In this document: piece after piece, positions 4,974-37,512 of the stretch
How positions within the stretch are numbered: the stretch's first letter is position 1
Layout of the letters: each line of letters opens with the position of its first letter
Virus record (IMG/VR): IMGVR_UViG_3300048921_000071
Coordinates: 1 to 38,435 of that record
DNA length: 38,435 nt
Source: a virus
Reading direction: 5' to 3' (one strand)
Program-made: the position numbers and the translations under genes
Notes under the pieces: model-generated
Seen by the model: only the letters and a program-made list of their open reading frames with translations
The model's database searches: none
What the model was told of the DNA's origin: nothing

Positions 4974-5317
4974 GCATCATCCCGCGCACGGTCACGCCGA
5001 AACAGCTTGCCGAAGAACTCGGCTGGTCGGAGAGATTTGTGCGGGAAACGGCCAGGGCGCACAATGCGTGCCTTGGCACCGGAAGGAACATGCGGCTAAC
5101 TGCGGCCGACGTCGAGACCATTATGGAGGCGAGGCGATGCCAATCAAGGTCTACCGCCCGAAAGGCAGCAAAATCTACAACTACCGCGGGACAGTTGCCG
5201 GCCGGAGATTACGAGGAACTACGGGCACAACTGACCGCGCCCGCGCGGAAAGAATTGCGGCCAAGAAAGAAAACGAACAATGGGACTGTCATCTTGATGG
5301 CCCCGAGGCAATCCTGA
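4970..5317 (+). CDS. Excisionase-like HTH DNA-binding protein
   Basis: Starts at GTG 4970 in a GTGA overlap. Residues about 7-56 form a MerR/Xis-type winged helix: TPKQLAEELGWSERFVRETA, then R-MRLTAADVETIMEARR. The position immediately before the integrase supports a recombination-directionality or int-regulating role. The recognisable domain ends exactly where the integrase ATG begins (5137). The remaining 60 residues are basic, low in hydrophobics and read in a second frame through the integrase gene, an unusually long 181-base overlap. Confidence 0.65.
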   Translation: MSIIPRTVTPKQLAEELGWSERFVRETARAHNACLGTGRNMRLTAADVETIMEARRCQSRSTARKAAKSTTTAGQLPAGDYEELRAQLTAPARKELRPRKKTNNGTVILMAPRQS

Positions 5318-6138
5318 CCTTCGCCAAGGCTGCGCTGCTCTATCGCTCGGCCGGCAAGCCCAGTCGGTTTCTGGCCAAGGTCGCGGACTATTGGAAGGAC
5401 ACGTTAGTCAAGGACATCAAGCCTGGCGCGATCCGCCAATCGGCCATGGAGCTCTATCCAGGTTGCATCGGCGCGAGCTGGGACAGGCAGGTCATCACCC
5501 CCACCCAGGCCGTCATCAACCACTGCGCTGATCTCGAGCTGTGCGCGCCCATCCGGGTCAAGCGATTCAAGGGCGAGAAGAAGATCAAGAAGCCGATCCT
5601 GCTGGATTGGATCACCACGTTCTGCGCCCACGCTCGGCCAGACATTGGCGCGTTGGCTCTGTTCATGTTCGCGACCGGCTGCCGGATCTCGGAAGCCCGC
5701 CGGCTGGAGTGGGAGGACATCGATTTCAAGCAGCGGACGATCCTGATCCGCAAGACCAAGAACCAACAACAGCGGATGCCGCACATGCCGCAGGCTCTAC
5801 TTGTGGCGCTGGCGAACCTGCCGCGGGCAAAGAGGCCGTTCTACAAGTCCGGCACGACCTTGCGACTCCACTGGGATCAGGCCATCCAGGAGGCCGCTAA
5901 AGCCGCCCCAGATGGCAAATTCGAGCGGCTGACCTTCCATAGCTGCCGCCACGGCTTCGCGACCAAGCTCCTGCGGGACGGGATCGACCCCAAGACGGCT
6001 GCGTGGCTCGGCGGGTGGAAGTCGATCCAATTGTTCATGGACACCTACGCGCACGAGATTCAGGATCGCTCACTCACCGAAGGGCTTTTTGACCAATCCC
6101 TGACAAGGTCGATCGCCTCGTACAAGCAAAAACAATAG
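5137..6138 (+). CDS. int: Tyrosine recombinase / phage integrase
   Basis: A 333-residue site-specific recombinase. The N-terminal 50 residues are a basic arm-type DNA-binding part (YRGTVAGRRLRG), followed by a core-binding region and a C-terminal catalytic domain. Visible active-site residues are R183 in ATGCRISEARR, a Lys in the KTKNQQQR hairpin (about 206-208), H268 and R271 in HSCRH, and nucleophile Y304 in MDTYAH. The usual second His/Trp position is W294 (LGGWKS). I chose ATG 5137 over an upstream in-frame ATG at 5068 because GGAGGCGAGG precedes it and the N-terminus then matches family members. It should drive integration and, with the HTH protein upstream, excision. Confidence 0.93.
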   Translation: MPIKVYRPKGSKIYNYRGTVAGRRLRGTTGTTDRARAERIAAKKENEQWDCHLDGPEAILTFAKAALLYRSAGKPSRFLAKVADYWKDTLVKDIKPGAIRQSAMELYPGCIGASWDRQVITPTQAVINHCADLELCAPIRVKRFKGEKKIKKPILLDWITTFCAHARPDIGALALFMFATGCRISEARRLEWEDIDFKQRTILIRKTKNQQQRMPHMPQALLVALANLPRAKRPFYKSGTTLRLHWDQAIQEAAKAAPDGKFERLTFHSCRHGFATKLLRDGIDPKTAAWLGGWKSIQLFMDTYAHEIQDRSLTEGLFDQSLTRSIASYKQKQ

Positions 6139-32060: not shown

Positions 32061-32516
32061 CTACATAGATACGAGGTTACGCAGGCGTTTTCCTGGCCTA
32101 GGTTTGCGGCTGCTCGTCCTCAGCCGCGGCGCTCGATCGGGATTGTAGTAGCGGGTATATCGCGGCGCAGCGCGTTCGTTATGCTGCCCCCTCACATGCC
32201 CGAAGAACATCCGCAGCATCTCTTCGTCGGTGACGCGCTGGGCTTTCCCGTTTGGATTGGCGGGAACGCTGTACACCCCATGGATATCGGGGATTCCGGC
32301 CCAGTCGTATTCTCGCTTTGCATCGTTGGCCTCGGTCATGAAGAACACGTAGCCGGTGAACAGCGGGAGCTCCTTGCGGTATTCGTGCCCATCCACCTTC
32401 CGAGACCGCGCGTAGGTCGGTAAAAACGCCCCGTGGTTCGTCTTCTCGATCTCACGGCGCGCGATGTGCTCCATCTTCGAAACCGTCTGGGCAACCGCCC
32501 AATAGCGCTCAGTCAT
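32061..32516 (-). CDS. NusG N-terminal-domain (RfaH/NusG-like) transcription elongation protein
   Basis: A 151-residue protein with the NGN fold signature: YWAVAQTVSKMEHIARREIE, then FLPTYARSRK, then ELPLFTGYVFFM. The region after about residue 95 is basic (RLRTSSRKPRPGKR) and I see no KOW domain, so it would be a short, RNA-polymerase-binding NusG paralog. Family members (NusG, RfaH, LoaP) modulate pausing and termination. Its gene overlaps the LuxR-type gene by 4 bases and ends upstream of the terminator guarding the late operon, suggesting an antiterminator. Confidence 0.8.
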   Translation of the reverse strand: MTERYWAVAQTVSKMEHIARREIEKTNHGAFLPTYARSRKVDGHEYRKELPLFTGYVFFMTEANDAKREYDWAGIPDIHGVYSVPANPNGKAQRVTDEEMLRMFFGHVRGQHNERAAPRYTRYYNPDRAPRLRTSSRKPRPGKRLRNLVSM

Positions 32517-32714: not shown

Positions 32715-33323
32715 TCAAAATCCAATCGGCTGGTCAAGCGGCTCGTCCGTGTCCTGCACCGCCTCAAGCGGGTCATCGACCGACCGACGCACCGCGGTGA
32801 TCGTAGCGCCCGGAAAGACCAACTTGGCCTTGGCGATGTCGGGATAGTTCGATAGCAGCCGGGCGATCTCCTCGATCGTGAATACGGAGACCGCTCTGCC
32901 CTCAGCGACCACAGCGCGCGCCTGGGCGTAATCCTGGACGATCGCTGCAACGCTGCCGTCCTCAAGCGGCACCTCCCAGACCTCCGACGCCAGCGGCTGC
33001 TTGCCGGCGGCAGCCGCGGCCCGGTCCAGCGCCAGCCAAGCCGTGACCATGCGACCGGCCTCGCGGCGCACCTCCTCGAGCTCGCCATGCCAGATCGCCT
33101 GGTTGAGGAGGTAGCGCTGCCGGTCGAACTTTTCGCGGAGGTCCGGCGCGACCAGCAAGCGCAATCGATCGCATCCCCACTTCGCTTCCATCTCGGCCGC
33201 CGTCTCGTCGGCGCCATCGATGTAGGCCCGCCCTGAGATGTAGGTGCCATGGGTCCGAGCCCAGGACCGTTCGCTTCCGAGAGGTCGGACGACAGTGTCG
33301 CCGAGGGTTGCTGTTTTTGCCAT
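32715..33323 (-). CDS. Hypothetical protein (202 aa) downstream of the repeat cluster
   Basis: A mostly helical, Ala/Glu/Arg-rich protein with a central DLREKFDRQRYLLNQAIWHGEL block, a beta-like VWEVPLEDGSVAAIVQD segment and an acidic C-terminus. I recognise the type as conserved in rhizobial phages but know no function. It is the first gene after the ATAGGC repeat cluster on the minus strand, so it is a candidate to bind it or to be controlled by it. Its stop codon sits just before the ribosome binding site of the LuxR-type gene. Confidence 0.65.
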   Translation of the reverse strand: MAKTATLGDTVVRPLGSERSWARTHGTYISGRAYIDGADETAAEMEAKWGCDRLRLLVAPDLREKFDRQRYLLNQAIWHGELEEVRREAGRMVTAWLALDRAAAAAGKQPLASEVWEVPLEDGSVAAIVQDYAQARAVVAEGRAVSVFTIEEIARLLSNYPDIAKAKLVFPGATITAVRRSVDDPLEAVQDTDEPLDQPIGF

Positions 33324-33342
33324 GTCAGCACCTCACTCCCAA

Positions 33343-33367
33343 GGCGGCGCGCCTATTTGGCGCCGCC
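33343..33367. repeat. 8-bp GC-rich inverted repeat in the leader of the 202-aa gene
   Basis: GGCGGCGC at 33343-33350 and GCGCCGCC at 33360-33367 are exact reverse complements with a nine-base gap that contains the first GCCTAT unit of the neighbouring repeat cluster. It lies 20-44 bases upstream of the ATG at 33323. It may be an operator or a small leader hairpin; no T-run follows it, so it is not a standard terminator. Confidence 0.55.
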
Positions 33368-33538
33368 CCGTAGGGGAGAAACATAGGCAAATAGGCAAGC
33401 CATTGCTGTTGCTGAAGAAATTCCGCCGCTAGGCGGATAGGCGCGCCTATGTGCGATGTATAGGCGTTCTCTATGTATTTCATGCACTTAACCCCTGTTT
33501 TTGATAGGCGCTAAAAAAAGATAGGCGCAACATAGGCG
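33350..33538. repeat. Iteron-like cluster of ATAGGC(G/A) repeats; candidate origin or operator array
   Basis: Nine exact copies of ATAGGC followed by G or A lie in 190 bases. Direct copies start at 33383, 33391, 33437, 33460, 33504, 33521 and 33532. Inverted copies (CGCCTAT) lie at 33350-33356 and 33444-33450. The copies at 33437-33450 form a perfect 14-bp palindrome, ATAGGCGCGCCTAT, and a one-mismatch copy is at 33429-33435. A short A-run lies at 33513-33519. Single ATAGGC words occur elsewhere inside genes, but not clustered. The region is non-coding, between the primase-helicase and the 202-aa gene, which suits an origin or a multi-operator promoter region. Confidence 0.75.
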
Positions 33539-33546
33539 CGGGTTTT

Positions 33547-35634
33547 TCAGCGTGCCCGGTAGCCCTTTTTCCCACTCTGGCTGGTGTAGATATCGCCGCT
33601 ATCCTTGACGTTCTTGAGGGCTGAAATCAGCGCCCCGCGATCGACCCGCGTGCCGAAATGCTTGACCATCTCTGTCTCCAGATGGCGCAATCCGGGGCCG
33701 CTTTTGGCGTGATAAGGACGGTCGTCGTCCCATGCCGCAGCGACGAATTGGATGATCTGATTTTCGATTGATTTGACCGCCACGACGTTGCTGGTCGAGG
33801 CTGGCTTCAGCACCCCTTCGGACCAAATCAATTCGAGTTTCACGTCATCGCCGGACGCCGAATAATTCGACTTCTTGCGGGTCAGGACGCGCTGCTCGGG
33901 GAGCCCATCTTCCGGGCGTGTCAGGTACAGCCTGGCGCGAACAGCATTGTTCCATGCTGTGGATCCGCTCTCGCCTGATCCTGAGTTCCGGCCGGCTTGG
34001 GACGGATGCGAGAGCAGGATAACGGTCAGGACAAATCCAGCATCCTTGGCTTGCTTGATGAGGCTGCCGCAGACAGCCTTGATGAAGTAATTGACCTGGG
34101 CCCGGATGATCTCATTGCCGCCGAAGAGGTCGGCGATCGTGTCGAGAACGAGCAGGCCGATCCGCTTCTCCATGGTATGCTTCATGATCAGGCCGAAGAA
34201 CGGCGAGATCAGAGGCTTGTTGTCCTTGTCGAAGGTCACGAGCAGGTTGTCGTGCCCGACCCGCGGCCATATCCACGTGTCCGTGAACGGATTGCCGACG
34301 GCGTGTCCTAGATCAGCCTTGATGGAATTGTGCCGGCGGTGCAGCTCGTCCTCGTCGTCCTCGCAGAACACGCCAAGGCCGCGCGTGGCCGGCACGTCGA
34401 TGCCAAGCCATTTCTCGCCAAGGCCAGCCGCATAGAGGAGCTGCTGGGCCAGCAAGGTCTTTCCCATGCCGCCGTCACCGGACAGGCTGGAGACGACGCC
34501 CTTGGGGATCCAGTCCTGAACGATCCATTCGCGCGGCCGTGGCTCACCAGCGAGCTCGCCAACATCGATCGGCTGGGATTCGTCGGCTGTGCCCTCGGCT
34601 GCCGCCGGCTCGGCCGGCGCCGCGGTCGCATCCCGCCACTCATCTTTGGGTAAAGGGCGTTGGGCGGCCTCCGCAATGTCCGTTGACCACTTCGACATGG
34701 CACGGCGCCACTTCTCGGCGAAGGCTGTAGGACCGCGTCCCTCGCGCTCCAGGCCGGCTGTATTGTCGCCTTCCAATCTAGTCTTGGTCTTTCGCTCGTA
34801 AACGGCCCAGACCTCGCGCATGCGGACCTGAGCCTCAGCTTCGGTCGGCGGGATCGGGCATTCCCGATACCAATTCGCGACGGCAGCCCAGATCAGGTCT
34901 CGCATGTAGTGGTCGCGACCATCGACCCTGGCGCCGAAGGCGTCGAGATCGCTTGATGGCGAGGCCGTGTTAACTTTCTCGGTCGGATTGGAGATGCGGT
35001 GCTGGTCGCCGCCAAATCGCTCCACGAGATCGGAGACTTCCTGTAGCAGCCAATCTGGCGCGGCCGCTATCTCGCACTCCCAGGGGGCACAGCCGCTCTT
35101 CCATGCGTAGGACTGGCCGGATATGTGCTGGGATGGCGGGAGGACTGCAAACCCTCCCTGCCCGCGGATATCGACACCCAAGGGTGTCTTGTTGGTGGGG
35201 GCGTGCCAGCCTTCTGGCGCTTTGAAGAAAAGCTGCCGGCCGCCGCCGCCAGTGACCTGCTGGCAGGTCTCGATCTCCATATCGTTGTTGTGCTCAGACA
35301 TGACGCCGCGCCACCATGTCAGGGCGTCAGGCGTCTTGTATTCATCGAGGTCGATGACGAAGACGTTGCCGGAGGCGCGGCCGGTCAAGATGCCCATGTT
35401 GAGCCGGCGACCGTGCTCTCCCTGCGGCCCGTACCAGCGCTCAAACGTGGCATCAGGAACGACGGCCTCTTGCAGAGACTTCCAGTCGGCGAGCGCCGGA
35501 CGCTTCCAGTTCTGGCCTGACGACGGCATGTGGGACGGCACGACCTGCCAAGAGCAGGCGCGATACATCGAGGCCCAGTCACCGGGCCCAGCAAAATCAG
35601 GATCAAAAGCTTCGACTAGCCCCACGTTTTTCAA
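33547..35634 (-). CDS. Primase-helicase: Prim-Pol domain fused to RepA-like AAA ATPase
   Basis: A 695-residue replication protein. The N-terminal 210 residues are a bifunctional primase-polymerase-type domain, with D95 and D97 in FVIDLDEYK and the TGGGGRQLFFKAP block at about 128-140. A linker rich in Ala/Pro/Glu (330-360) leads to a RepA/DnaB-like ATPase with Walker A at 385-393 (SGDGGMGKT), Walker B at 494-498 (LLVLD) and an ILLSHPSQAGRNSGSGESGS sensor-like segment. No phage DNA polymerase was found, so the host enzyme is probably used. The start is a TTG at 35634; GTG 35625 is an alternative with better spacing from AGGA. Confidence 0.88.
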   Translation of the reverse strand: MKNVGLVEAFDPDFAGPGDWASMYRACSWQVVPSHMPSSGQNWKRPALADWKSLQEAVVPDATFERWYGPQGEHGRRLNMGILTGRASGNVFVIDLDEYKTPDALTWWRGVMSEHNNDMEIETCQQVTGGGGRQLFFKAPEGWHAPTNKTPLGVDIRGQGGFAVLPPSQHISGQSYAWKSGCAPWECEIAAAPDWLLQEVSDLVERFGGDQHRISNPTEKVNTASPSSDLDAFGARVDGRDHYMRDLIWAAVANWYRECPIPPTEAEAQVRMREVWAVYERKTKTRLEGDNTAGLEREGRGPTAFAEKWRRAMSKWSTDIAEAAQRPLPKDEWRDATAAPAEPAAAEGTADESQPIDVGELAGEPRPREWIVQDWIPKGVVSSLSGDGGMGKTLLAQQLLYAAGLGEKWLGIDVPATRGLGVFCEDDEDELHRRHNSIKADLGHAVGNPFTDTWIWPRVGHDNLLVTFDKDNKPLISPFFGLIMKHTMEKRIGLLVLDTIADLFGGNEIIRAQVNYFIKAVCGSLIKQAKDAGFVLTVILLSHPSQAGRNSGSGESGSTAWNNAVRARLYLTRPEDGLPEQRVLTRKKSNYSASGDDVKLELIWSEGVLKPASTSNVVAVKSIENQIIQFVAAAWDDDRPYHAKSGPGLRHLETEMVKHFGTRVDRGALISALKNVKDSGDIYTSQSGKKGYRAR

Positions 35635-36783: not shown

Positions 36784-37512
36784 TTAAAAGCCCCAGGTCT
36801 CGAACCCGATCTGCCGGGCCGGAGGACCGGACCAGTAAAAGGATTCGAAATCGGGGGCCGTGATCTTGGTGAAAAATTCGGGGTCATCGGACAGCGACAG
36901 AAACGCTTCGCAGCGCAACGCGATCTGATGCAGCGCCTGCCGATGAGCATCGACGTTATCGATTTGATACGTCGCGCGCTTCTTCGGCGTGACGTAAGAC
37001 ACGCGGGCATCGGCGTTGTTGGTCGTAACATAAAGCGCGACCTGGCGAGCGTGCGGGACTTTTACGGCAGACGGCAGCTTTTCGGTCGTTTTGAGATCAA
37101 CCGTGATGTTGTGCTGTTCCCAATGGTAGTCGTAATAGCCGACGATCGGGAGCTGCAGACCTTCGGGGCGCCATTCGATAAATCCCTGGGTGTGGCTCGG
37201 GATGCCGTACGGCCGTAGCTCGTCCAGACCAGCCATGACCATGGCGCCGATCGTTTCGCGATATTCTTCGCGTCGCCTGTCGCCTGACAGGGCCGTGATG
37301 ACGTCGTATTTCTTCAATGCAGCTTCGATGCAGGCCGTGACCGTCGCATTGGGGTCGAGAAGACCTAGCGTGATGCCGTCTTCTACGGCTGTGCCACGAT
37401 GCGCGGGTGAGCCGACAGGCTGCCGGCGACCAAGTACCTTTTCGAGGACAAACATCGAAGGACTGGCGCAGAACAGATTGAGTGACGAAGGGGAATGGCG
37501 CTCGATTTTCAT
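36784..37512 (-). CDS. PD-(D/E)XK nuclease, RecB/Cas4-like exonuclease
   Basis: A 242-residue nuclease. Visible motifs are an N-terminal SPSSLNLFCASPSMF, RGTAVEDG (residues 39-46, the conserved acidic helix), D128 in VGYYDYH, D139-x-K141 in DLKTTEK, and Q157-xxx-Y161 in HARQVALYV, the full order of the RecB-type fold. It would resect or trim DNA in phage recombination or replication, with the resolvase upstream and the ssDNA-binding-like protein downstream. It overlaps the resolvase gene by 4 bases. Confidence 0.85.
   Translation of the reverse strand: MKIERHSPSSLNLFCASPSMFVLEKVLGRRQPVGSPAHRGTAVEDGITLGLLDPNATVTACIEAALKKYDVITALSGDRRREEYRETIGAMVMAGLDELRPYGIPSHTQGFIEWRPEGLQLPIVGYYDYHWEQHNITVDLKTTEKLPSAVKVPHARQVALYVTTNNADARVSYVTPKKRATYQIDNVDAHRQALHQIALRCEAFLSLSDDPEFFTKITAPDFESFYWSGPPARQIGFETWGF

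Follow-up and report, generated by a model that had tools for sequence, protein, structure and literature searches.

What is the role of the dense array of short repeats that fills the gap between a primase-helicase gene (hereafter rep) and the gene of a conserved 202-aa protein in a phage genome? The window, i.e., the whole stretch of DNA that was analysed, is a 38,435-base IMG/VR virus record. It encodes an integrase (5068-6138) along with large terminase, portal, major head, and head-closure genes, and is therefore a temperate tailed phage or prophage. Comparison with related loci leads us to regard the array as quite likely the replication origin of this phage, in which the iterons would be bound by the C-terminal winged helix of the adjacent primase-helicase (Table 1).

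The gap is non-coding, measures 223 bp, and lies between the rep stop codon (33547) and the 202-aa start codon (ATG, 33323); both genes are on the minus strand. As the first-pass annotation had counted, it holds nine exact copies of ATAGGCR, which occur in both orientations, and the near copy CTAGGCG (33429-33435). Read from the rep stop codon, iterons starting at 33532, 33521, and 33504 are followed by an AT-rich spacer (33467-33503) and then by iterons at 33460, 33444 (minus strand), and 33437. The last two meet head to head in the 14-bp palindrome ATAGGCGCGCCTAT (33437-33450), which occurs once in the record and had likewise been recognized as a fusion of two units. Beyond the palindrome cluster, away from rep, come a second spacer, iterons at 33391 and 33383, and two overlapping hairpins, the second of which contains the ninth iteron (33350, minus strand). 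Two features of iteron origins are present, namely short repeats clustered beyond chance beside a replication gene, and an adjoining AT-rich candidate melting region between two iteron clusters. Start-to-start spacings include the 11, 23, and 44 that had been read as near-helical phasing, but such phasing is not a strict rule, because the other spacings are 7, 8, 16, 17, 33, and 46. The GC skew gave no clear origin, its cumulative minimum falling at 36815, away from the array.

The density of the repeats lies above expectation, as had been anticipated. The gap (33324-33546) contains nine ATAGGCR, compared with 0.16 on average and never more than 3 in 5000 local dinucleotide shuffles; in the whole window there are 16, versus 5.35 (sd 2.3) in shuffles, and the strongest 6-mer cluster outside the gap counts 5 copies. 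Functionless repetition, through low complexity or chance, has the short length of the unit and nothing else in its favor. It is statistically refuted by the shuffle test and is also contradicted by the arrays that diverse phages carry in the matching position, so that we give it practically no credence.

Table 1. Coordinates of the putative origin, its elements, and the flanking genes in the window.
Feature	Position	Strand	Basis or remark
202-aa conserved phage protein, possibly terminase small subunit, not iteron binder	32715..33323	-	
Putative replication origin (iterons, spacers, hairpins)	33324..33546		Matching position and architecture in relatives
Second hairpin GGCGGCGC..GCGCCGCC	33343..33367		Loop holds most of iteron 33350-33356; fold z -2.0, modest
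Iteron ATAGGCG inside second hairpin	33350..33356	-	
Hairpin CCCCGTAGGGG	33366..33376		CCCCTACGGGG-type stems recur beside arrays of relatives
Iteron ATAGGCA	33383..33389	+	
Iteron ATAGGCA	33391..33397	+	
Near copy CTAGGCG	33429..33435	+	
Perfect palindrome ATAGGCGCGCCTAT, two head-to-head iterons	33437..33450		
Iteron ATAGGCG	33460..33466	+	
AT-rich spacer, candidate melting region	33467..33503		65% AT vs 40% AT genome; analogous spacers in relatives
CATGAAATACATA, degenerate counterpart of TGA(A/T)(A/T)TCA dyad	33472..33484	-	
Iteron ATAGGCG	33504..33510	+	
Iteron ATAGGCG	33521..33527	+	
Iteron ATAGGCG, cluster closest to rep stop codon	33532..33538	+	
Initiator: Prim-Pol + AAA_25 (RepA-like helicase) + C-terminal winged helix, 695 aa	33547..35634	-	
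C-terminal winged-helix domain, residues 617-695, putatively iteron-binding	33550..33786	-	AlphaFold2 model; covariation with iterons

The initiator matches Prim-Pol at residues 27-195 (E=3.6e-23) and AAA_25 (PF13481) at residues 355-545 (E=3.4e-24), and no SF3 helicase family was reported among its domain matches. Its residues 617-695 are predicted to form a winged helix. Specifically, in an AlphaFold2 model of the last 135 residues, made with 14 relatives (mean pLDDT 82 for the modelled stretch), they adopt a helix-helix-helix-strand-strand arrangement, and VIA-align matched the domain to the winged-helix domain of Pyrococcus Rpa2 with a Z of 8.0, which identifies the fold class alone. No specific family is claimed for it, because Foldseek returned nothing at E below 0.001 and the VIA Z values only reached 8.0. 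A PDB sequence search with the initiator gave no match. Profile comparison linked the window-type C-terminus to the GCGGAAGT-type C-terminus (E 2e-6) and not to the GGGACA type taken as a single sequence. Relatives differ in their N-terminal module, which is Prim-Pol, a type with no more than a weak resemblance to RepB_primase, or, in phage WO, Toprim. The second of these (..TPD(I/V)xAMxxHVEHLFGG..) takes the place of Prim-Pol in loci L021, L025, L026, L198, and L200, where it precedes the same kinds of helicase and C-terminus as Prim-Pol; it had no Pfam match above the cut-off, the weak RepB_primase match in L026 (E=0.022) falling below it.

Related loci were fetched in overlapping sets, i.e., 26 viral loci with the 202-aa protein, 80 with the 202-aa alignment, and 80 with the rep alignment; the 202-aa alignment also yielded 11 genome loci from Bradyrhizobium, Xanthobacteraceae, and others. 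An array close to the primase-helicase gene is present in more than 60 loci of related phages and prophages, but the unit differs. Units found in relatives are GCGGAAGT/GCGGAGGT, ATCGACGG, ATGACGAT, GGGACAAA, GTGCAACAT, and CTGGAGCA, and further ones are CTGAACGA, CGTAGC, GCACAGAAG, AAGGCGAT, and GAAAGCGTT. The first-pass annotation had proposed to look for the same array beside homologues of the 202-aa gene; an array is indeed kept there, but its unit is not. In 55 of the 91 de-duplicated loci the densest repeat of the locus sits by the rep stop codon or the 202-aa start, several others have the array 1-2.5 kb downstream of rep, and in some no array was detected; these exceptions count against the origin reading. 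Relatives with the same flanking genes and no array, which had been named as evidence against the proposal, were not found for most loci. We rate these loci as putative initiator-origin cassettes with an exchangeable recognition domain, carried by temperate phages mostly of alphaproteobacteria.

The position of the arrays in relatives also bears on whether a repressor or the initiator acts on the array as a transcriptional operator controlling the downstream 202-aa/late operon. Although the array immediately precedes the 202-aa start codon and includes a palindrome, nine or more units in 190 bp exceed usual operators. Moreover, arrays stay with rep when other genes separate them from the 202-aa gene (L020, L024, L025, and L040), they are also found behind rep in loci devoid of the 202-aa family (L011, L012, and L014), and the LuxR-type neighbour of the window is absent from nearly all relatives. 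We consider an operator unlikely.

As judged from sequence comparison, the identity of the unit follows the helicase/C-terminal half of the initiator, and not its N-terminal primase or the 202-aa protein. Among 65 loci, a set that includes a few spurious coding 6-mer clusters, all 20 pairs with a C-terminal similarity of at least 0.8 share iterons, whereas sharing is very rare in pairs below 0.1. For the 50 loci in which an array adjoins rep, iteron similarity was compared, on non-coding DNA only, with the similarity of each protein part by partial rank correlation. The coefficients were 0.29 (last 100 residues) and 0.25 (helicase), with 0/500 permutations each, versus -0.03 (N-terminal primase) and 0.06 (202-aa protein). 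The helicase and the C-terminus mostly pass down as one block, so that only a few natural swaps allow their contributions to be told apart. Compared with L015, the window has a 202-aa protein that is 94% identical and a similar N-terminus, whereas the C-termini are unrelated and the repeats differ. Likewise, L005 resembles the window in N-terminus and 202-aa protein and differs in C-terminus and iteron. Conversely, L021 shares CTGAACGA with L202 and L064 at C-terminal similarities of 0.61-0.65, their N-termini being unrelated (0.03-0.04), and L198 shares a GCGGA core with L016 (N-terminus 0.02, helicase 0.24, C-terminus 0.55). L200 has a helicase similar to that of the window (0.69), a less similar C-terminus (0.34), and a different unit (CGGGAGCG). 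This joint change of repeats and enzyme C-terminus suggests that the C-terminus reads the repeats. On the other hand, contrary pairs exist, i.e., the window versus L004 and L127 versus L128, in which similar C-termini accompany different units. The units of L127 (GAACGCCTT) and L128 (GAACGCTTT) are one base apart and score zero because the k-mer similarity is strict. Such close pairs with differing units would be compatible with a rapid change of specificity, but they weaken simple tracking.

The first-pass annotation had suggested a replication origin and offered three candidate binders, namely the 202-aa protein, a LuxR-type protein, and the primase-helicase. Our comparison supports the origin reading, and the primase-helicase stands well ahead of the other two candidates. 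We rejected the 202-aa protein because the iterons vary independently of it (negative covariation test); in L015, the array has a different unit beside a nearly identical protein. The LuxR-type protein was rejected with homologues in only 2 fetched loci, whereas about 182 retain the 202-aa gene, and a NusG-like neighbour was rejected with homologues in only 3. The latter (32061-32516; Pfam NusG E=3.8e-10) adjoins the 64-aa LuxR-type HTH protein, and both are rare in relatives.

The 202-aa family was present in about 180 fetched loci, some of them overlapping. The protein matched no Pfam, PHROG, or NCBIfam family at the thresholds used, and its AF2 model consists of long helices with weak ends. 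One of its structural neighbours is annotated as a terminase small subunit, and its gene precedes the large terminase in the operon, both of which would suit a pac/cos packaging site to which a small terminase binds, perhaps the 202-aa protein itself. Such a site is nonetheless very unlikely, given the entirely different unit that accompanies the 94% identical protein of L015, the partial correlation of 0.06, and the arrays that occur without this protein; the constant hairpins could serve packaging.

Besides the iterons, the origin regions share other elements. A dyad TGA(A/T)(A/T)TCA, often ATTGAAATCATT, lies between the iteron clusters of many relatives, and TGAWWTCA reaches 1.16 per kb in origin regions versus 0.057 per kb in the remaining locus DNA, i.e., an enrichment of about 20-fold. 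The counterpart in the window, CATGAAATACATA, is degenerate and departs from this consensus. The occurrence of the dyad next to iterons of very different sequence makes recognition by the variable domain improbable; possibly the dyad is a host-factor site or a melting element. An extended form, TAAGTCATTGA(A/T)(A/T)TCATTG, was seen beside differing units, for instance in L026 (3768-4000), L035, and L016. Stems beside the arrays are longer than in shuffled DNA, in part owing to the iteron palindromes, and the advantage of single-strand folds over those of shuffles is modest.

The putative origin resembles several known systems in part. The C-terminal domain of SaPI Rep recognizes iterons directly downstream of its own gene, and SCCmec Cch2 binds direct repeats downstream of its own gene (PMC7581432). 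Origins of PICIs, the phage-inducible islands of staphylococci and E. coli, consist of an AT-rich region flanked by two iteron sets (PMC6092414), and the window has this layout immediately 3' of rep. However, PICI Rep is found on satellites, whereas the window has an integrase and virion genes of its own (large terminase, portal, major head, and head closure), and its initiator combines Prim-Pol, AAA_25, and a winged helix. The visible diversification of domain and iterons is a further difference from these precedents. Like P4 alpha and pRN1 ORF904, this initiator carries primase, helicase, and C-terminal winged helix in one chain, with AAA_25 instead of an SF3 helicase. P4 alpha, whose origin is of the iteron type, unites primase, helicase, and C-terminal winged-helix origin binding in a single polypeptide (PMC4234260), a binding that we infer for the window, but it pairs a Toprim primase with the SF3 helicase, where the window has Prim-Pol with an AAA_25/RepA-like helicase. 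ORF904 of the archaeal plasmid pRN1 shares the domain order and has a stem-loop origin; together with Bordetella phage BIP-1 it resembles the window in its archaeo-eukaryotic primase, helicase, C-terminal winged helix, and origin just 3' of the gene (PMC4234260), and differs in the SF3 helicase and in a large stem-loop instead of iterons. Winged helices fused to the primase-helicases of mobile elements, among which RepA-type helicases have been noted, were proposed to act in origin recognition (PMC5862659). Finally, plasmid RSF1010 also combines iterons with hairpins (ssiA/ssiB) and a RepA-type helicase, but its RepA helicase, RepB' primase, and RepC iteron binder are three proteins, whereas the window has one fused protein.

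Some plasmids use iteron arrays as centromeres, and the array might by the same token be a partition/incompatibility site of a plasmid-prophage and not an origin. This appears extremely improbable, considering that the window encodes an integrase (5068-6138), that a scan of neighbouring proteins revealed no partition gene, and that repeat identity follows the replication protein.

A related arrangement was found in phage WO of Wolbachia; a phage WO relative carries the annotation 'similar to RepA of plasmid RSF1010'. In WOVitA1, a AAGTTGGCAA/AAGATGGCAA array (L209:3731-3990, KX522565.1) and a hairpin come straight after the RepA-like gene (Toprim + AAA_25), with 7 TGGCAA in 260 bp as opposed to at most 4 in shuffles. 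This array is a candidate replication origin of WO, although both its unit and the primase domain differ from those of the window. No array was found behind the RepA-like gene of the wKue and wMel WO homologues, which have another C-terminus. The available part of a genomic survey of WO discusses the chromosomal origin of Wolbachia and does not describe a phage origin.

If the array is the replication origin, the primase-helicase would bind the ATAGGC(G/A) iterons through its C-terminal winged-helix domain, and several bound copies would assemble over the two or three iteron clusters flanking the AT-rich spacer. The RepA-like helicase domains, to go by their family, may then form a ring and open the spacer, and the N-terminal primase would lay the first primers, perhaps (more speculatively) at the exposed hairpins beside the 202-aa gene. 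Recognition domain and iterons would move as a matched pair, which is supported by the relatives that hold other pairs in the same genomic slot. More tentatively, and with somewhat less than even confidence, we propose that diversifying selection acts on the initiator-origin specificity of these phages, domain and iterons changing together and recombining as cassettes that keep phage origins separate. Such cassettes would join different primase N-termini (Prim-Pol, the unassigned RepB'-like module, and Toprim), and related prophages or superinfecting phages would neither fire nor titrate each other's origins, like plasmid incompatibility groups. For a wide range of phages from alphaproteobacteria and elsewhere, phage WO among them, the origin reading would provide a candidate origin and initiator, and it would extend to integrase-bearing phages an origin layout reported as unique to PICIs. 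The series of matched winged-helix/iteron pairs could also serve as a data set for a protein-DNA recognition code and as a supply of orthogonal origins.

Two further observations concern the recognition domain. The arrays of L028 and L207 have the 8-mer CTGGAGCA in common, yet their C-termini look unrelated, which counts against the proposed pairing of C-terminus and unit. Separate proteins of about 210-310 aa with an initiator-type C-terminal winged helix are encoded in L038 (1370-2044), L100, L108, L174, L187, and L204, and these small stand-alone proteins are possible iteron binders or regulators.
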